Positions 5,587 to 26,078 of a stretch of 28,034 nt of DNA are shown piece after piece (within the stretch, counting starts at the first letter, position 1; each line of letters starts with the position of its first letter). Source of the stretch: a virus; IMG/VR virus record IMGVR_UViG_3300027899_000054, positions 1-28,034 of that record; one strand, written 5' to 3'. The position numbers and the translations under genes were made by a program. Under the pieces are notes generated by a model. That model was not told the DNA's origin. It saw nothing but the letters and a program-made list of their open reading frames with translations, and searched no databases.

Positions 5587-7195
5587 TCTTTTCGATCAGC
5601 TTCTTCACCGCCTCGCGTACCCGCGCCTCGCTGGTGGTAGCACCGCTCGTCACGTCTGCCGTCTCATCCGGGTATAGGGCAGTCATGATCTCGTCGACAT
5701 CATCCTGCGCCAAGGCGGTCAATAGCAGCCTTGCCACCACCGGCTCGTCGAAGATCGCAATCTGCTGGCCGTTGAGCGTTGCCGCCGTCACGATCGCCTG
5801 CACCATCGCCTGCGTATCCCGTTCCAGGATGGGCGGGAAGTCGATATCCAGGTGGGGGTCCACATCCTGCGCCCAAATGATCTTCTCTTCGTTCTCGCCG
5901 TCATCCACCGTCTTTTCGACCGTAGCCACGCCGCTCAATTGGTTTGCCTTGGCCGCATGCAGGATCACAAAATTGATGATGTCCCGCAGCACATCCATCC
6001 ACATCGTCTGCCGGTTGCGCATCATCAACTCGGTTGGCCGGTCCAGTGTCTTGCCGGTCGCCAGCGTGCCAACGCTCACATCGCCATAATACGTCTCTGG
6101 CAGTCCTGCGCTGGCTGCCACCATCAACAACATCCTCCGCCCGTCCTCTGCCGCCACGTTCGCCCCGCGCAGCTGCATCGGTTCCAGGTCCACTCCCTCA
6201 GCGCCGATGAACGTCGAGCCGGTCACCGGCGGCGGGTTGGTTTCTCCCTCGCTTCCGCTGTTGGCCACCGTGGTGGAGAGCTTCGCCTTGGCCGCGGCCA
6301 CACCCTTCTTCCCGCCTTTGGTTGTCATCTTCCACGCAAAGCGCGAATAGGCACGCGTCAGGCTTGCCCAATCTTCCAGGAATTCCTTATAGGCTCGCGC
6401 CCAGTCGATCGCCGCATAGACTTCGCTCACCCCGAACTTCCACCCGCTCATCCCACCGGACTTGATGTGATACACCGGGCTGGACCATTGCACAGGCACA
6501 TTCCCAATCCTGTTCGGTTTCTGGACCGGGTTATAGTGCCAGTCCGGGTAATAGGCTTTGAGCGTCTGGGTATTCATGCGTCCGGTGGACGGGTTGATCT
6601 TCTTCTCCGTCCAGGAACGCACGTAATACCACGGGCATTTTGCATCCTCCGGGTTGCTGACGATGTCGGTAACTTCATCCACCGGGATCGTGCGCACCAG
6701 CACGCGCCCATCGGTGGGACGCACGAAAAAGACAAAGAAAATATTCCCTTCCACTGCCAGGTCGCAGTCCTTCAGGAAGCGTGCCTGGTGGCTCGTCAAT
6801 TCGGAGCGGTTCCGTTCTTCGTCCCAGAACGCTTGGATGACCGTATTGATCCGGGCATCCTTCGCCCGCACTGTAATTCCCTGGGCCCACACATACAAAG
6901 CCTGCACTAGCACGGACCGCTTGATCAGCGGGTTTTTGATGAACATGATCCGTGCCAGCTCGCAGATCTTCTGAAGCCCGTCCCGGCTGAATTCCTGCTC
7001 GTTGTTCAGCATCAGGCGCATCCAGTTGGCATCCTCGAGCGCCAGCTCCAGCTCCGCCATGCGCTCCTGCAGTACCTCGCCGTTGAACTCGCTCTGCCGC
7101 AGTTCCTGAACGAGAATATCCTGCATCTGGCCCACCTTACCGCCAAGCAGGAAATTTCCAATCCGTTCGCGCAACTTCAAATTCTCATTCATCAT
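5564..7195 (-). CDS. Phage portal protein
   Basis: This 543-residue protein forms the dodecameric DNA entry pore at one capsid vertex and docks the terminase. Family-like segments include FIKNPLIKRSVLVQALYVWAQ (about residues 78-98), the basic and aromatic stretch around PWYYVRSWTEKKINPSTGR, VSEVYAAIDWARAYKEFLED and YGDVSVGTLATGKTLDRPTE. The length fits SPP1/Mu-like portals. It sits between the large terminase and the gp7/F-like gene, the standard order. Two adjacent ATGs (7195 and 7192) follow a GAGAGAAG site, and either may start translation. A nine-base tandem repeat separates it from the terminase stop. Confidence 0.88.
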   Translation of the reverse strand: MMNENLKLRERIGNFLLGGKVGQMQDILVQELRQSEFNGEVLQERMAELELALEDANWMRLMLNNEQEFSRDGLQKICELARIMFIKNPLIKRSVLVQALYVWAQGITVRAKDARINTVIQAFWDEERNRSELTSHQARFLKDCDLAVEGNIFFVFFVRPTDGRVLVRTIPVDEVTDIVSNPEDAKCPWYYVRSWTEKKINPSTGRMNTQTLKAYYPDWHYNPVQKPNRIGNVPVQWSSPVYHIKSGGMSGWKFGVSEVYAAIDWARAYKEFLEDWASLTRAYSRFAWKMTTKGGKKGVAAAKAKLSTTVANSGSEGETNPPPVTGSTFIGAEGVDLEPMQLRGANVAAEDGRRMLLMVAASAGLPETYYGDVSVGTLATGKTLDRPTELMMRNRQTMWMDVLRDIINFVILHAAKANQLSGVATVEKTVDDGENEEKIIWAQDVDPHLDIDFPPILERDTQAMVQAIVTAATLNGQQIAIFDEPVVARLLLTALAQDDVDEIMTALYPDETADVTSGATTSEARVREAVKKLIEKIGAGSRG

Positions 7196-15837: not shown

Positions 15838-17121
15838 TTACCCAAGCATCTCTTGTACTTCTTCTTCCGCAAAAGGCCTGTTTTCGGCAGTTTTTTGACC
15901 GGAAGAGCCTATTTTGGAAGAAGAAGAAGTTTTTCTCATGGCCTCTACCTTGCTTTTCAACCGGTAATAGCTTGCTCCTCCAGATACGCCCCAGACCAGG
16001 CGCACGATGGCAGCATCGCTCTCCACATCCAGTTCGATCAACTTCCGCACCTGCTCATCGTCTGCATCTTTCTGCGTCGCTGGGGCAGGTATCCCGCTTT
16101 GCTCTGCCAGCATTTGACGCACCGCGTCGCTCGGCTTCGGATAAGAAATCAGATATCCCTGGAACTCGGTCAGCCCGCTGTGCAAGATCAATCCACGTCC
16201 GCGCACGTCTGGCAATTTTTCTGCGCTCGGATATCCGAGAATGGTGGAACTGTCATTGTGGGAAACGACCTTGAATGCAATGCGCGTCCCGATCTGGCTT
16301 TTCGCCACAACCGTCGCCTTGCCCGGGTTGTTCGTGGCAAAGATCGGATACACACCGCTGGCCCGGCACAGGCTTACTAGGTGCAATAGTTTCTCCTGAT
16401 CCTTTACTTCGGCAATTTCATCAATCACCAGTGCAATTGGATTGAAAGGATCGTCCTGATTTTCTACGTTCCAATCAACGATATTGGTCATGCCACTGGG
16501 AGCCATCTTGATCCGGCGTTCCTTGGCAATGTTGGCGATCTCGGAAAGTTTGTCTTGTAATCTGTGGACCGGGATCAGGGTGAAATGCGGGCAGTCCGCA
16601 TATCTGCCATATTCGAGATCGTCTTTCCCATCCCAGGCCCACACATCCGTCTTCTCTCCATGGAGCAGTGCCTGAACGAAACCATGCAGCATGGCGCTCT
16701 TTCCCTTCCCCGGCAAACCAGCAATCAGGAAGGAATATCGTTCGAGCAAAGAGACCCACAGATCGCCGTTCTTCGTCATCCCGATCGGCAGGGACCAGGG
16801 CGTGGGCTGTTTCGAGAGATCGAGCGCCACCGGCGTCCAGTCCATCTCCCGCGCTCGCTCCTTTCCCACCAGCAACCACAGTCCGCGCCCGTTCACCAGG
16901 ATCACCGGTCGTCCATATAACAAAGTTTGCAGTTCATGGGCAAACGTCTCATCGATCTTCTTCTGGATCAATTTCGATGGATTGCAGGTGATCGTGACGA
17001 ATTCGTCCTGTTCGTTGGAGCTCACCCGGAAATACGGTCCTTTTTGAGAGACGATAGCCCGGTGTTGCAGTAAGAGCTTCATCGTCATGGAAGCCACTGC
17101 CACAGTGAAGTGCTCGTTCAT
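15838..17121 (-). CDS. FtsK/SpoIIIE-type DNA translocase (TraB-like)
   Basis: This 427-residue protein uses the ATG at 17121 (AAGGAGG upstream, overlapping the previous stop). It is a hexameric motor that pumps double-stranded DNA using ATP. An N-terminal domain of about 110 residues precedes the motor. Walker A is AGLPGKGKSA (G135-S142) and Walker B is ALVIDEIAE (230-238). The family block CRASGVYPIFATNN then VAKSQIGTRIAFKVVSHNDS and GYPSAEKLPDVRGRGLIL (about 252-312) is typical of FtsK motors. There is no transmembrane region, and a C-terminal winged-helix-like part (IVRLVWGVSGGASYYRLKSK) may read DNA sequence. Such motors move conjugative DNA in actinomycetes and are uncommon in tailed phages. 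Confidence 0.87.
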   Translation of the reverse strand: MNEHFTVAVASMTMKLLLQHRAIVSQKGPYFRVSSNEQDEFVTITCNPSKLIQKKIDETFAHELQTLLYGRPVILVNGRGLWLLVGKERAREMDWTPVALDLSKQPTPWSLPIGMTKNGDLWVSLLERYSFLIAGLPGKGKSAMLHGFVQALLHGEKTDVWAWDGKDDLEYGRYADCPHFTLIPVHRLQDKLSEIANIAKERRIKMAPSGMTNIVDWNVENQDDPFNPIALVIDEIAEVKDQEKLLHLVSLCRASGVYPIFATNNPGKATVVAKSQIGTRIAFKVVSHNDSSTILGYPSAEKLPDVRGRGLILHSGLTEFQGYLISYPKPSDAVRQMLAEQSGIPAPATQKDADDEQVRKLIELDVESDAAIVRLVWGVSGGASYYRLKSKVEAMRKTSSSSKIGSSGQKTAENRPFAEEEVQEMLG

Positions 17122-18200
17122 TGCGCCTCCTTCCACTTTCCGTTCAGATATTCACTTGTCTCGGCATTCGCATCCGGACCGGCCTCCAGCAGGTATGGCG
17201 TTTGCGGACCTGCCATGATGTCGTTCGCCACGTTGAACGGCTCCTGCCGTGCCCCCAGCGCCGCCGCCCGGATCGCCTTCACCCGGTTCAACTGGTCCAC
17301 CACCATCGCCTGGTAATTGGAAGCACCCTGCGGCATAACATTGCCTCGACCTGCCAGTGTCAGCGCCGGATCTGTCATCAGTTCGCTCGATACCACCTGC
17401 TTCACGCCGCCCGCCTCGATCAGGTTGACCGCTCCATCCGGCGTCAGCTTGCGCACCTGGCTAAACTTCCATGCTGCGAACGCCACGATCGCCACGGAGA
17501 GCAGGATCACAAACCACATCAGTGGCGTGGTGATCCGTTGGCGTGCCACGGCATCGTTTGCGTTCTGTACGTTCAGCGCCACTAATGTTGCCTGCTGCAT
17601 CTCGTTATTCGCCTGCCGCGTGGCATAGAACGGAAGTGCTGTCTGCGTCCAACTGGCAGCCGTTGCCGTTCCTGGATAAGCCATTGCCGTGCTGTTCGCC
17701 ACCGCCGTCCCGGTCACTGCCCACACCGTCGCCGTCCAGGCAGCGTTCTGCGTAGCCTGCGCCTGTTCCAATTGGAGTTTTTCCTGTTGCAGCAAATACG
17801 CCTTCTCGGCCGCTTCTGCGATCTGCGTCGCCGATAAGTGCTGGGCATCTGCGGCCGCTTTGGCTGCCACATTGGCAGCATACGCAGCGGACGTGGCTGC
17901 CACTTCCGCCGCGTTCGGTCCGCTGGGGGTAGGTTGTGGCGTTAAGATCGCATCGGATACCTTTTGGCCGAGCGCATCCGCAACGCTCGCCTCAGCCGAG
18001 TCCACTGTGGCCTGTGCTTGCCTGGCGCTGTCTGTGTTGTCCTTTATCGCCTTGCTTGCATAGGATGAGACGGCGATACCCGCTGCCACAACCAGCATAA
18101 CCAGCACCAGGATCAGGATCAACTGCGGCGGAAGTAACATGGCATCTCGGTTCCGCAGTAAATCTATTGTCGGCTTAAAAAAGGATTGAAAGCGTTTCAT
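17118..18200 (-). CDS. Large membrane protein with Ala/Thr/Gln-rich coiled region
   Basis: The product has 360 residues. One transmembrane helix lies at about 24-45 (LPPQLILILVLVMLVVAAGI) and a second at about 228-246 (MWFVILLSVAIVAFAAW). Between them are about 180 residues rich in Ala, Gln and Thr, with short repeats such as AEVAATSAAYAANVAAKAAA and ATATQNAAWTATVWAVTGT, probably an extended extracytoplasmic rod. The C-terminus is soluble. It is coupled to the 139-residue membrane protein upstream (TAATG) and to the translocase downstream (ATGA), so it is likely part of one membrane complex with them. I do not recognise a named family. Confidence 0.6.
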   Translation of the reverse strand: MKRFQSFFKPTIDLLRNRDAMLLPPQLILILVLVMLVVAAGIAVSSYASKAIKDNTDSARQAQATVDSAEASVADALGQKVSDAILTPQPTPSGPNAAEVAATSAAYAANVAAKAAADAQHLSATQIAEAAEKAYLLQQEKLQLEQAQATQNAAWTATVWAVTGTAVANSTAMAYPGTATAASWTQTALPFYATRQANNEMQQATLVALNVQNANDAVARQRITTPLMWFVILLSVAIVAFAAWKFSQVRKLTPDGAVNLIEAGGVKQVVSSELMTDPALTLAGRGNVMPQGASNYQAMVVDQLNRVKAIRAAALGARQEPFNVANDIMAGPQTPYLLEAGPDANAETSEYLNGKWKEAQ

Positions 18201-18632: not shown

Positions 18633-18782
18633 CTAAAATAATGCAATCCAGATCCCGATCACCGCGCCGAGCACGGTGCCCAACGCCCCTATCAGGCCAT
18701 ACACGATCCAATACTCGCGCCTGGTCATCCCCTTTTCAGGGCAAACCACCCGCACCTTCCGCAAAACCACCTCACCTTTCAT
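18633..18782 (-). CDS. 49-residue single-helix membrane protein
   Basis: It starts at the ATG at 18782, with GGAGG three to four bases upstream. The longer open frame runs into the CCTCAT repeats and is not credible. A basic N-terminus (MKGEVVLRKVRVVCPEKGMT) leads into one hydrophobic helix, YWIVYGLIGALGTVLGAVIGIWIALF in two halves (about residues 24-49). It is the first gene after the repeat cluster and opens the translocase operon. Confidence 0.6.
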   Translation of the reverse strand: MKGEVVLRKVRVVCPEKGMTRREYWIVYGLIGALGTVLGAVIGIWIALF

Positions 18783-18793
18783 AGCACCTCCAT

Positions 18794-19091
18794 CCTCATG
18801 TATCCTCATACTTGCCTCATGTTTTTCGACGGGGCGTCCTGCCCCAAAATACAAGACAAATAAAAACCTTTAAATTACCTATCCTCATACATCCTCATAA
18901 GCCTCATGTTTTTGCCCATTGTCAGACAACCAAGGCGGGGTAAACCTGAAAACATGAGGATCATGAGGCAATATGAGGCAGTTTTTGCCAAAAAGACCAT
19001 CTAAAATTTGTTTTGTAACGCTCCGGCTCCACAAAACAAATGCAACCCCCCATACCCCGAAAAATGCCTCATACATCCTCATATGCCTCAT
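18794..19091. other. Iteron-like array, candidate replication origin
   Basis: Twelve CCTCAT boxes form four clusters of three. Direct clusters begin at 18794, 18804, 18815; at 18883, 18893, 18902; and at 19067, 19077, 19086. One inverted cluster has ATGAGG at 18954, 18963 and 18973. Steps are 9-11 bases, one helical turn, and every cluster ends in CCTCATGTTT. A strongly AT-rich stretch (18845-18882) lies between the first two clusters. The array sits between the primase-helicase stop and the translocase operon. Binding sites for a replication initiator are the best reading. An operator for the 49-residue gene's operon is the alternative. A 68-residue open frame across the array is not a credible gene. 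Confidence 0.75.
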
Positions 19092-19093
19092 GT

Positions 19094-22090
19094 TTACATC
19101 TCCAATTGCGTGGCCGCTGGCTCTACAGCCTTCGCTTCGATCCCAAAGCGGAATTTCCCGGCCATGATCTTTTCCTCATCCAGCACGATCCCTGCGCCTC
19201 CGCCTTTTGACCCGCTCCGCTCCACGGGCATGCGGAAAATGTCTCTGCAGATGCCCCCGATCGTTCTGCTCGTCACCCCCCCATCCTTTTTCTTTTGGCT
19301 CGGGTCAACAAAATTCTCGGCATCCATGATCTCATTTGCAACCACCGCCAGGTCCTTGGCCAGCACATAGCGGCAATGACCAAATTTTCCCAACTTCCCG
19401 TTCTGGACGTATTTGGCATACTCCTTATCCTCGTGCACTGCCAGCACCGCCCGGAAGATCGTCGCATCGAAACTGTCGCTCTCTCGCGTCTGTTCCGCAT
19501 CGTAGTTGATCTCCGCGATCATTTCGAGATCACCCATCAAATCCTTGTCTTCCAGCAGATGCGCCAGCACCTTCAACGGTCTCATGATCTGGTTCATCCG
19601 TGCACTGATCCGCCGGTCGGTCAAGATCACATTGTCATCCACTTCCAGGTTGGGTATCCATGTGGACAACCGGAAATACAATAGCTGGTTGGTCAATTGC
19701 AGGGCTTCGGGATCCATACTTCGGGGAATTCTCCCCGGCTCGATGGGCGGATGGTGCGCCAGCAGCTCGTCGGTGGATCTCCTGGCTAGGTCGAACGGCA
19801 GGCAGCGGCTCTCCGTGGCCGGGTCCGGGAAAGGCTTGTACCCCGTCATCAGGGTGGGACCGAACACGAACGTGGTGCTGGGCCGGAACGTATGCGTCCC
19901 ATCCGGTTTCAACACATCCATCATCGTGACAATTCGTGCCTGTTCCCGCATGGCACGCACGTTCAACAGCGCCTGCAATTCACCCCGTTCCTCTTGGCCG
20001 CCGCGCTTCAACGCCCGGTCCACCTCGTCGATCATCAGGGTACCCTTATACAGATGCGCCATGCCCTTCCAGCCTGCAATACTCGTCAGACCCGCCGTGA
20101 TCATCATCCGGTAGCAGATCCTTCCGATCAACAGCATCAACTCACTCTTCCCGCTTCCCGCCGGACCGCGGGCGTACAAAAATGAACTATAAGGAAATGC
20201 ATCGAACAGCCAGGTGAAAAGCACGTACAACCCCATCAGGATAATATGGACCTGGTCCTCGATCAGGAAATATCGATCAATGAACAGGCGGATCTCAGCC
20301 AACAATTCCCGGATGGGCTTCTTCGCCCCCAGCTCGCTCGCCAGCCGCACCGTTCCATATCGAATGTTGTCATCCATCCACGGCACATAACGGATCCCTT
20401 TGATGTCCATGAAATTGGCGGTCCCGATCTCCCGGATCACCTTCCCGTTCAGCCAGATGTGGGCGTAAGCAAAGCTGGCCTTCCCATTTTTAGGATCATA
20501 GATTTCCTCCAGCAAATACCCCTCCGTCCCCTCCTCGTTCAATGGATACCATCCCCCCAGGGTATCCACGATCTCAACTGGCTTCTCGTCGTCATCCTTG
20601 TTCTTCAGTTCAGCGCCGATCAGCTTCTCATACGGCCGTATCGGTGCCCCCTTGTATTCCGGGAACAGATCTTCGGGGAACAACGCCTTCGCCAGCCGCA
20701 GTCGGTAATCGTTGCGCGTATTGGTGGGCATCTTGGCGATCAGCGGCAGCACGATCTCCAGCAACTTCTGGCGATCCGCCCCTTGTTTCCTGCCTGCCCA
20801 TTCAGCAGCCAGCAGCGTGATCGGCGTTGCCTTGTCGAAAATCGCCTTGACGTTCTCTTCCTGGACCTTTGGCTCGATCTTCTCGTCGGCATGGTACATC
20901 GCCAGGTCGTTGGCATCCTTGCTCACCTTCTCATGCCCGTCCGGTCTCGTCCATTTGAACTTCGGCCACCGCGCCACCCACAGCATGGACCCGAAAGCAG
21001 TAGTCAGCGGGAACGTCCCCTCGTCCCGACCCGCACCCGTCACCACCGCCTCGCCCGGCGTATCTGCGTCCGTGGCGAAATAGATCGTCTCATGCTTCGG
21101 GTTGCCCTTACCGTCCTTCGCCGTCAGCAGCGCCACGTACTCATCCAATCCCTTCCAGGCCGAACCGCACAACGCCATGGCCGGGATACCCCACTGTCCC
21201 AGCGTGATCGCATCCCCCTGCCCCTCCACGATCACGATCCTGTCCCGGTCCCCTCGCTGATAGGCATGGTTGAAATACGGGACCTTCTCTCCAGCCAAAG
21301 TCGAATAAGGGTTGAATGATTTCCACTCACGTTCCTGGCCTGTATCATGATCCTTGATCACATCCCGACCCGGCAGTTGCCGCCGCGACAGGTAAACGAT
21401 CCTCCCGTTGAACTTGTGCGCGTACACCAGTCCCGGCGTATCCATCATTCCATGGATCCGGCTTTCCTTGAATGATTGTGGGTTCAGTCCGTGCTTTTGT
21501 GCCCATGCTGCCACATTCCCCTGGTAACCCAGCACGATCACCGCCTGCGGGCTGTCATGGGCAATGCCGTGCATATTGAACTCATCCCGCATTTCCTTTG
21601 CCTGAGCAGCAGTAGCCCGCCCGCTGAACCCCAGCCTGGATGCCGCAATCGTTTCATCCGACCATCCCCGGCTCCTGGCGTAGGCCAGCGCTTCCTCATC
21701 CTCCAGCAGCCATTTGGCGAAGATCCGTGCTGCAATCGTCAGCGCATCCTCCCGTGCCCTCGTTGCCAGGCGTTGCTGCAGTTCCGGACCATCTACATCG
21801 CCAAGCGGCAGGCTCGCCCGTCGCGCAAGGTCCCGAATGGCTTCCTTCACATCCCATCCCGGGTTCTGCTTCAACACCCAGTCGATTACAGTCCCGCCCT
21901 CGTTGCATGATCCAAAACAATGCCACGTGCCCGTATCCGGGAACACAATCAGCGCCCCCGTGTGGCTGTTCGGGTGGAATGGGCAGAACCCGGTCCAGTT
22001 CTTCCCCGACCGGCGCAGCTTGACCGATGCTGTCTCATTCACCAAGTCGATGATATTGACTTTATCCTTGATCTCATCGATGATCGTCAT
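19094..22090 (-). CDS. Primase-helicase (CHC2 zinc finger, Toprim, P-loop ATPase)
   Basis: This 998-residue replication protein uses the ATG at 22090 with GGAG six bases upstream; a GTG at 22108 is less likely. Domains in order: CHC2 zinc finger (CPFHPNSHTG from Cys36 and His39 to WHCFGSCNEGG, Cys58 and Cys62); Toprim primase catalytic core (IVIVEGQGDAITLG with Glu289 and Asp293, and FATDADTPGEA with Asp341 and Asp343); a linker of about 250 residues; then an ATPase with Walker A ARGPAGSGKSE (642-649) and Walker B TLMIDEVDRA (685-689). The C-terminus (750-998) is not assigned. It would prime and unwind phage DNA, and the iteron array follows it immediately. Confidence 0.9.
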   Translation of the reverse strand: MTIIDEIKDKVNIIDLVNETASVKLRRSGKNWTGFCPFHPNSHTGALIVFPDTGTWHCFGSCNEGGTVIDWVLKQNPGWDVKEAIRDLARRASLPLGDVDGPELQQRLATRAREDALTIAARIFAKWLLEDEEALAYARSRGWSDETIAASRLGFSGRATAAQAKEMRDEFNMHGIAHDSPQAVIVLGYQGNVAAWAQKHGLNPQSFKESRIHGMMDTPGLVYAHKFNGRIVYLSRRQLPGRDVIKDHDTGQEREWKSFNPYSTLAGEKVPYFNHAYQRGDRDRIVIVEGQGDAITLGQWGIPAMALCGSAWKGLDEYVALLTAKDGKGNPKHETIYFATDADTPGEAVVTGAGRDEGTFPLTTAFGSMLWVARWPKFKWTRPDGHEKVSKDANDLAMYHADEKIEPKVQEENVKAIFDKATPITLLAAEWAGRKQGADRQKLLEIVLPLIAKMPTNTRNDYRLRLAKALFPEDLFPEYKGAPIRPYEKLIGAELKNKDDDEKPVEIVDTLGGWYPLNEEGTEGYLLEEIYDPKNGKASFAYAHIWLNGKVIREIGTANFMDIKGIRYVPWMDDNIRYGTVRLASELGAKKPIRELLAEIRLFIDRYFLIEDQVHIILMGLYVLFTWLFDAFPYSSFLYARGPAGSGKSELMLLIGRICYRMMITAGLTSIAGWKGMAHLYKGTLMIDEVDRALKRGGQEERGELQALLNVRAMREQARIVTMMDVLKPDGTHTFRPSTTFVFGPTLMTGYKPFPDPATESRCLPFDLARRSTDELLAHHPPIEPGRIPRSMDPEALQLTNQLLYFRLSTWIPNLEVDDNVILTDRRISARMNQIMRPLKVLAHLLEDKDLMGDLEMIAEINYDAEQTRESDSFDATIFRAVLAVHEDKEYAKYVQNGKLGKFGHCRYVLAKDLAVVANEIMDAENFVDPSQKKKDGGVTSRTIGGICRDIFRMPVERSGSKGGGAGIVLDEEKIMAGKFRFGIEAKAVEPAATQLEM

Positions 22091-22183
22091 GCGTTTCTCC
22101 AAACTCACTCAGAATTTTCCAGCCACTAAGCCTTAGCCTAGCCAAATCTCCACTGGGAATTTCGGCCCCGCCCCCTCCCGCCC

Positions 22184-23147: not shown

Positions 23148-24092
23148 CTACATCTCCTCGACCGCTGCGCGCATATCGCTCTCACGCGGACCGGTGTAAT
23201 ACTTCAACAGTACCGTCTCGTTGTCGCCTGTTTCCTGGCTGGCAGCCTTGAGCGCCGCCGGGAAACGGCTCGGATCGCCGCGCATGTAAGCCGCCATGTA
23301 GTTCATCACGAACTGATGACGCATGTAATGCGGAGTGGCTTTCACACCCGCAGCCTCAGCAATCAGCACAAATCGCCTCCATGCCGTTTCCCGCCCAATG
23401 GACAGACCGTGCTCATCGGTGATCAACGTCCCTTCCACAGAGACAGGCATCCGGCCTAGCCATGCATGGATGCGTTTCTCCAGGGTGCTCCTCACGTGCG
23501 GCCAGCGGTGCTTCATCCCCTTTCCAAGAAGGTGCATCTTCCCGCCTTCCAACTCATCCAAATCGGACAGGCTGAGCTCCACCACCTCGCTGATCCGTAG
23601 ACCGGCATCGAGCATCAAATGGAAGATAAGACTGTCGCGCAAGCCAAGCAGGGATCCATCCGCCTCGAGCGCATCCGCAGCCGCCTCGAGCCGGGACTGT
23701 TCCTCAGCCGTCACATCACGTGGTGCCTGGGGGACTGCCTCCACGTATGGGATCCGTGCCGTAGGATCGTCTTCCAGGATGCCCTCCTGGATGGCCCATT
23801 TGATCAGCAAACGGACCGATGCCAGCTTGCGTTTGTGCGTGGCGGGAGCGTTCTCGAATTGCGAAAAATACTCCCCAACATTGACCGGGTTCATGTGCTC
23901 CGGCTCGAACGCCACACCGTAGCGCTCCTCGAACCAGGTCGCCATCAATCGGATGTCGCGCTCATAGGCTTCCAGCGTCTTCACATCCCGGTCACGCCGC
24001 TTCTGGCTCGGCGTCTGTTTCAGCCACAGCGCAAAGGACTCGCTCCAGTGCAGCGTAGGCGTCACACGGACATTAGAAAGGCTGGTCAGCAT
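23148..24092 (-). CDS. int: Tyrosine recombinase/integrase
   Basis: The product has 314 residues from the ATG at 24092 (AAGGAAG upstream, 20-base overlap with the preceding gene). It would integrate and excise the element at an att site by strand exchange. An N-terminal SAM-like core-binding domain (about 12-115: ESFALWLKQTP, LEAYERDIRLMATWF, KRKLASVRLLIKWAI) precedes the catalytic domain. There DAGLRISEVVEL gives Arg166, GKGMKHRWP gives Lys191, PHYMRHQF gives His255 and Arg258, and VLLKYYTG gives the nucleophile Tyr298 or Tyr299. The usual LGH before the Tyr reads TGD, and an insert lies before it. It sits in the middle of the early operon rather than at an end. Confidence 0.9.
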   Translation of the reverse strand: MLTSLSNVRVTPTLHWSESFALWLKQTPSQKRRDRDVKTLEAYERDIRLMATWFEERYGVAFEPEHMNPVNVGEYFSQFENAPATHKRKLASVRLLIKWAIQEGILEDDPTARIPYVEAVPQAPRDVTAEEQSRLEAAADALEADGSLLGLRDSLIFHLMLDAGLRISEVVELSLSDLDELEGGKMHLLGKGMKHRWPHVRSTLEKRIHAWLGRMPVSVEGTLITDEHGLSIGRETAWRRFVLIAEAAGVKATPHYMRHQFVMNYMAAYMRGDPSRFPAALKAASQETGDNETVLLKYYTGPRESDMRAAVEEM

Positions 24093-24306
24093 ATTCCACT
24101 TCCTTTGGCATCGTATCCAGGAAAGACTGCGCCCGATCGGCCCACCGGATGGCATACTTCATGGCCGCGGTTGCCGTTTTGAAGGACAGCTTCCCTCGGT
24201 AGGCATAGCGCCGTTGGCCCTGGCGGTAGATGAACGGGTGATACCGCTTTGCGGAATGGTTCGTTATCTTTTGATAGCCTGGTTGAATTAACATGGACAT
24301 GTTCAT
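24073..24306 (-). CDS. Small basic protein upstream of the integrase
   Basis: This 77-residue, strongly basic protein contains SAKRYHPFIYRQGQRRYAYR then GKLSFKTATAAMKYAIRWAD. The beta-hairpin-plus-helix pattern is similar to AP2-type or Arm-type DNA-binding domains found at the front of integrases. The start overlaps the previous stop (ATGA), and a later ATG at 24300 has better spacing from GGAGG. The gene overlaps the integrase start by 20 bases. A role as a detached arm-binding domain or excisionase is a reasonable guess, not shown. Confidence 0.6.
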   Translation of the reverse strand: MNMSMLIQPGYQKITNHSAKRYHPFIYRQGQRRYAYRGKLSFKTATAAMKYAIRWADRAQSFLDTMPKEVEYADQPF

Positions 24307-25745: not shown

Positions 25746-26078
25746 CTATGCTGAATGTGCGTCTTGCTGGCTGATGACTCGATTGGATAAAACGATCAGG
25801 TGCTTGTCGATCGTCGGACTGAACGCCTCCGGCAGTACCGCACACAGCATGTCCACTGCCCAGTCTGCCCGCCAGTCATCGTGGTTGATCAGGATGATCC
25901 ACAGGAATTCCATCTTCGGCTCCATCATGCCCTTTTCCCAGTTCTGGACCGATGCGTGCGAAACGCTGGTGTTGACCAGGTGCTCATTCAATGCGTCTGC
26001 GAATGCCCGGTAGGTGAGCCCTTGCTTCTCTCGATAATCTCTTGTCACAATTGCCGCTGGATTTTTCGTCTCGTTCAT
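25746..26078 (-). CDS. Xre-family HTH regulator, Cro-like
   Basis: The product has 110 residues with one HTH domain near the N-terminus: REKQGLTYRAFADALNEHLV then NTSVSHASVQNWEKGMMEP (about residues 16-54). The rest is a short helical part. It is the first gene of the leftward early operon and faces a second HTH regulator across a 122-base intergenic region, as Cro faces CI in lambdoid phages. Transcription from the promoter at 26132-26159 would give a leader of about 47 bases. The gene probably represses its own promoter and the lysogeny promoter. Confidence 0.8.
   Translation of the reverse strand: MNETKNPAAIVTRDYREKQGLTYRAFADALNEHLVNTSVSHASVQNWEKGMMEPKMEFLWIILINHDDWRADWAVDMLCAVLPEAFSPTIDKHLIVLSNRVISQQDAHSA

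Follow-up and report, generated by a model that had tools for sequence, protein, structure and literature searches.

A probable phage replication origin of four iteron triplets directly behind a primase-helicase gene

Twelve copies of the hexamer CCTCAT, arranged as four triplets of which one is inverted, lie at positions 18794–19091 of a phage sequence, immediately 3′ of a primase-helicase gene. We interpret this region as the phage's own replication origin, placed right after the gene that encodes its initiator, with the primase-helicase binding the iterons, probably through its C-terminal winged helix; we give this reading a probability of about 0.78. The window analyzed, 28,034 bases long, is an entire IMG/VR record and may cover only part of the genome. 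It represents a tailed phage, with terminase (5.9e-97), portal (1.7e-90), and head protein (4e-51) genes, and the relatives of its primase in genome records are from Chloroflexota (HGW-Chloroflexi-6 and an Anaerolinea sp.).

A scan of the window placed CCTCAT at 18794, 18804, and 18815; at 18883, 18893, and 18902; on the minus strand at 18954, 18963, and 18973; and at 19067, 19077, and 19086, with repeat-to-repeat steps of 9–11 bp inside the triplets. All four triplets fit the pattern CCTCAT-N-CCTCAT-N-CCTCATGTTT exactly, and the reversed control pattern had no match in the window. The positions and pattern thus reproduce an earlier note on this DNA, which had described twelve identical hexamers in four triplets at 9–11-base steps, one inverted and each ending in CCTCATGTTT. 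The claim that such an arrangement is not due to chance also holds: there are 12 CCTCAT copies per 300 bp, whereas no hexamer exceeded 6 in 300 bp when the window was dinucleotide-shuffled 60 times (mean of the maxima, 4.8). Scattering of the motif through the host genome had been named as an argument against an origin; within the window, no such scattering is seen. Across its whole length CCTCAT shows no excess (19 observed, 20.4 expected), the seven copies outside the arrays are solitary and dispersed, and the 28-kb record, possibly not a complete one, holds a single cluster.

The arrays occupy the gap between the stop of the primase-helicase gene (19094) and the start of a small gene (~18782). 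This gap is intergenic and crossed by chance ORFs only; as the earlier note had stated, no gene explains the repeats. It had also pointed to an AT-rich stretch alongside, and the intervals between arrays 1 and 2 and between arrays 3 and 4 are 58% and 60% AT, respectively, versus 43% in the flanks. An Rfam scan found no RNA family in the window, and a promoter and terminator scan found neither a promoter-like site nor an intrinsic terminator in the array region; the inverted repeat described below is therefore not a standard terminator. The cumulative GC skew, suggested earlier as a check, falls steadily through the window without a turning point at the array, and is uninformative because nearly all genes of the window share one direction.

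Read along the direction of the primase gene, the region consists of array 1, an inverted repeat, array 2, a palindrome, array 3, an AT-rich element, and array 4. Array 1 (19067–19091, minus strand) begins a few bases past the primase stop codon and holds three ATGAGG iterons (CCTCAT on the opposite strand) at steps of 9 and 10 bp. The inverted repeat ATTTGTTTTGT / ACAAAACAAAT (19006–19041) is the AT-rich element that separates array 1 from array 2 (18954–18978, plus strand), whose three ATGAGG iterons have the inverted orientation, such that arrays 1 and 2 oppose each other with this element between them. The spacer of the inverted repeat is 14 bp in the window and 14–25 bp among close relatives, and its arms are almost invariant in an alignment of eight relatives. 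The palindrome TTGTCAGACAA (TTGTCTGACAA along the primase direction; 18919–18929), found with at most one mismatch in six of the eight aligned relatives, separates arrays 2 and 3. Array 3 (18883–18907, minus strand) again has three ATGAGG iterons at steps of 9 and 10 bp. It is followed by the AT-rich element GGTAATTTAAAGGTTTTTATTTGTCTTGTAT (18849–18879, minus strand), a candidate second melting site, the core of which is kept in all eight aligned relatives and which reaches a 25-bp maximum of 84% AT. This element contains ATTTGTCTTGT, which differs from one arm of the inverted repeat by a single mismatch; that arm may serve as a third site, bound by a second protein. Array 4 (18794–18820, minus strand; three ATGAGG, steps of 11 and 10 bp) stops ~12 bp short of the start codon of a small gene that follows (18633–18782, minus strand; 49 aa from ATG), whose GGAGG ribosome site is just past the array.

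The proposed initiator (19094–22108, minus strand; 1004 aa) comprises a DnaG-type zinc ribbon, a TOPRIM domain, an AAA+/SF3-like helicase, and a predicted C-terminal winged helix. Its N-terminal half is DnaG-like both by Pfam (PF01807, 2.9e-18; a weak Toprim match) and by fold (Foldseek match to DnaG, 2au3, 5.7e-14). In the AlphaFold2 model (pLDDT 81.7), the C-terminal half matched the NrS-1 CTR (8.6e-5), D5 (6.4e-4), and staphylococcal PriRep1 in its dsDNA-bound structure (7pds, 6.7e-4), as well as AAV Rep; TM-scores for the SF3/D5 matches were low, the model being multidomain. No Pfam helicase family was matched. As modeled, the protein fits the AAA+ SF3/D5 helicase fold of self-loading initiator helicases. 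Residues 905–991 (19136–19396, minus strand) are predicted to form strands, two helices, a beta wing, and a further helix, making up a winged helix that is the candidate iteron-binding domain. Searched in isolation, this domain gave no Foldseek match below an E value of 0.001, and the best plausible ones were winged-helix proteins.

Four known systems provide the closest comparisons. In phage P4, the C-terminal winged helix of the alpha protein binds repeats (PMC4234260). As in P4, primase and helicase are joined in one protein and short iterons lie directly 3′ of its gene; the cis-required region of P4, crr, spans ~300 bp behind alpha (record X51522). The P4 repeats are 8 bp long and occur in both orientations, many at 9–11-bp steps, with a triplet in ori at 10- and 11-bp steps, and their GTGAAC-type sequence resembles the iteron core seen most often in the phage family of the window. 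Unlike P4, whose ori is a second site over 2 kb distant, the window has one cluster, in a record that is possibly incomplete. Moreover, alpha is not detectably homologous to the primase-helicase save for short motif matches (hhalign probability 11%): alpha has D5_N and Pox_D5, whereas the window's protein matches neither, and by the alpha domain set of Zn_Ribbon_Prim, Toprim_3, D5_N, and Pox_D5 it is not identifiable as an alpha homolog. By comparison with alpha, the predicted C-terminal winged helix is the candidate for binding the iterons.

PICIs have a like organization, with the origin 3′ of the primase/rep gene (PMC6092414). This directly adjoining placement is shared by the rep-ori regions of SaPIbov1, SaPI5 (PriRep1), and the E. 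coli PICIs, and the helicase fold of the window's protein matches SaPI5 PriRep1. Unlike a PICI, the window phage has its own terminase, portal, and head genes and is not a satellite; it also has four triplets rather than two sets, with a DnaG-type primase fused in front. In SCCmec, short iterons 3′ of the cch2 gene are bound by the C-terminal domain of the helicase Cch2 (PMC7581432), although there the iterons are three AAGTG copies, the primase-polymerase is separate, and the element is not a phage. In pRN1, too, the replication protein is multidomain and ends in a winged helix, and the origin lies 3′ of it (PMC4234260), but that origin is a stem-loop without iterons, and the primase is archaeo-eukaryotic. 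Because P4, the PICIs, and SCCmec Cch2 share its organization, we take the primase-helicase to be the initiator, and we infer by analogy that it binds the arrays. The earlier note had offered the primase C-terminus as a candidate binder; this is likely, as named systems with a like layout use the primase-helicase, or the helicase itself, as initiator, acting via the C-terminal domain in those cases that have been studied. Judged by sequence, the region appears to work like the P4/PICI class, yet no homology of its initiator to alpha is detectable, and the phage does not qualify as a PICI. A limited literature search returned no description of this phage origin family.

In such an origin, the primase-helicase would bind the twelve iterons, contacting one helix face within each triplet. 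Arrays 1 and 2, facing each other over the AT-rich inverted repeat, would seat one helicase assembly, and arrays 3 and 4, around the second AT-rich element, would seat another. Each assembly would then presumably open the AT-rich DNA, after which the helicase would be loaded and synthesis primed by the fused primase. We speculate that the twelve sites fit two hexamers, one facing array pair per melting site.

Scans with primase alignments yielded ~80 relatives of the primase in viral contigs and Chloroflexota genomes. Absence of the motif from close relatives that keep the primase, raised earlier as a potential objection, is contradicted by seven phages with primases 69–75% identical, in all of which array, AT-rich/inverted repeat, inverted array, array, AT-rich element, and array follow in the same order. 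With few exceptions, the ATGAGG phages have steps of 9–10, 10–9, 9–10, and 11–10 bp, and the invariant columns of an eight-phage alignment are mainly the iterons, the inverted-repeat arms, and the AT-rich element. With primases 28–57% identical, the sequence of an array, an inverted array ~100–150 bp on, and two more arrays recurs in different letters. Of 67 testable loci, 47 have their strongest hexamer cluster, over the full locus, precisely at the 3′ side of the primase, a conserved layout that supports the probable replication origin proposed in the earlier note. In ~50 of 77 loci, the hexamer cluster behind the primase exceeded all of 100 shuffles; about one-third of the distant loci are without a clear cluster. 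A blind scan with the inverted-repeat pattern matched 32 contigs; in at least 12 of these the repeat follows the gene of a primase relative, the most distant of them 30% identical. The primase is the sole gene common to all 37 loci compared (antisense shadow ORFs aside). INPHARED and plasmid sequences contained no array DNA and no full-length primase relative (at most ~39% covered in INPHARED, in the primase half), and the 396 genomes from the class of a host genome contained one full-length relative.

The letters of the iterons differ among these phages. Cores include ATGAGG, ATGAAG, ATGAAC, GTGAAC, GTGTAC, ATGTAC, GTGAAT, GTAAAC, and others, and nearly all copies within one phage change together; in L162 and L173, nearly all copies are ATGAAG rather than ATGAGG, with constant geometry. 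On a primase tree of 41 rows built without the winged helix, the core changed at least 22 times, a count that is approximate since motifs were assigned by inspecting the top hexamers and the exact motif is not settled for L203, L209, L171, and L199. Core position 2 is T throughout this set; position 1 (A/G) accounts for ten changes. Columns of the winged helix covary with the motif slightly above other columns (p ~0.001–0.002; the columns are not independent). In a regression of domain identity on motif difference there was no effect, and phage pairs with differing motifs are not more diverged in the winged helix; the independent-pairs test was restricted to two motif positions and few pairs. 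Such frequent concerted iteron change at near-fixed geometry is an unusual feature in comparison with the known P4/PICI class. Tentatively, and with odds we place a little short of even, these phages form a large Chloroflexota phage origin family in which geometry stays constant while the iterons are repeatedly replaced in concert by matching initiator changes, the switching being under selection. Such selection could arise if co-infecting or co-resident phages thereby avoid sharing or titrating each other's initiator.

Apart from the primase itself, just one gene recurs beside it in almost every locus, that of the integrase (within ~4.5 kb in 34 of 37), and for this reason we examined whether the triplets are arm-type sites of a phage integrase, as part of an attP (ALTERNATIVES). 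In lambda, arm sites come in threes about 10 bp apart, a spacing that the triplets resemble. Nonetheless, this reading is highly improbable. The integrases checked consist of core-binding and catalytic domains with no arm-binding domain, and three loci with strong arrays (L191, L220, and L222) have no integrase in the locus. The inverted-repeat spacer varies over 14–25 bp, exceeding the 6–8-bp overlap of tyrosine recombinases. The chromosomal provirus of PHBU01000020 spans 13.1–45.8 kb of the 72-kb contig and has its repeats at 19.6 kb, well inside its ends, with other genes lying beyond them; being internal in an integrated provirus, the arrays are not attP. A search of two proviruses for attL/attR repeats found none. 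Hardly credible, too, is a parS-like partition site or a loading site for a DNA translocase such as the FtsK/SpoIIIE-like protein of the window (15838–17136; phrog_1358, 1.1e-34): ParA genes do occur, but in 8 of 37 loci, and the FtsK-like gene in 2 of 37, which is too rare for a binder of arrays present in most.

Operators at which a repressor, or the primase, controls the primase operon or the gene that follows array 4 would suit the position of array 4, just ahead of a start codon, and the window encodes an HTH_3 protein (25746–26078). We regard this as quite improbable, since the region is without a promoter-like site, arrays 1–3 are behind the primase gene and far from its promoter, and the HTH gene, unlike the arrays, is not shared by most loci. 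Autoregulation may be a secondary role of the arrays. It is unlikely, finally, that the region is an origin whose iterons are bound by another protein, either a host initiator or an unrecognized phage protein, that recruits the primase-helicase. The covariation, domain-divergence, and isolated-domain Foldseek results, which give weak direct evidence for the primase, leave room for such a protein; yet no further gene is common to all loci, a host protein is hard to square with letters that differ between close phages, and comparable named systems use a fused or linked helicase.

An origin has to fit its initiator, and still many of them must have swapped partners over evolutionary time, which raises the question of how every copy of a repeat shifts along with the protein. 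If the primase-helicase is the initiator, this phage family offers dozens of natural origin–initiator pairs in which the spacing hardly varies and the repeat has changed at least 22 times. The repeat differs even between primases ~80% identical: leaving out the winged helix, the primases of L161 (ATGAGG) and L173 (ATGAAG) share 82% identity, and domain swaps between them could reveal the specificity residues. The array could further serve as a physical marker for origins in uncultured Chloroflexota phages and supply candidate replicons for Chloroflexota, a phylum with few genetic tools.

A simple XerC/D-type integrase (23148–24155 in the window) is encoded shortly upstream of the primase, as in nearly all loci, forming an int-primase-ori module. 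ParA-like genes lie ~2 kb behind the primase in L223 and seven other loci, and some of these members may persist as plasmid-like prophages. A blind scan for CCTCAT triplets also found three unrelated contigs with repeats directly behind a primase or helicase gene. These CCTCAT-type clusters (L008:4435–4510, L052:1099–1329, and L060:4393–4655) follow Prim-Pol/AAA_25, D5_N/DUF5906, and BT4734-like/DUF5906 genes, respectively, with no relative of the window's primase detected in the three contigs: like letters in like places, beside other initiators. Most other loose matches of that scan were 9-bp periodic stretches, probably coding repeats. In L167, one in-frame stop (6831–6856) breaks the primase frame while the arrays are intact. 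In L193, an ATGAAC cluster is situated ~1.2 kb behind the assigned end of the primase, where the frame is probably broken; the cluster may sit at the true end of the gene.
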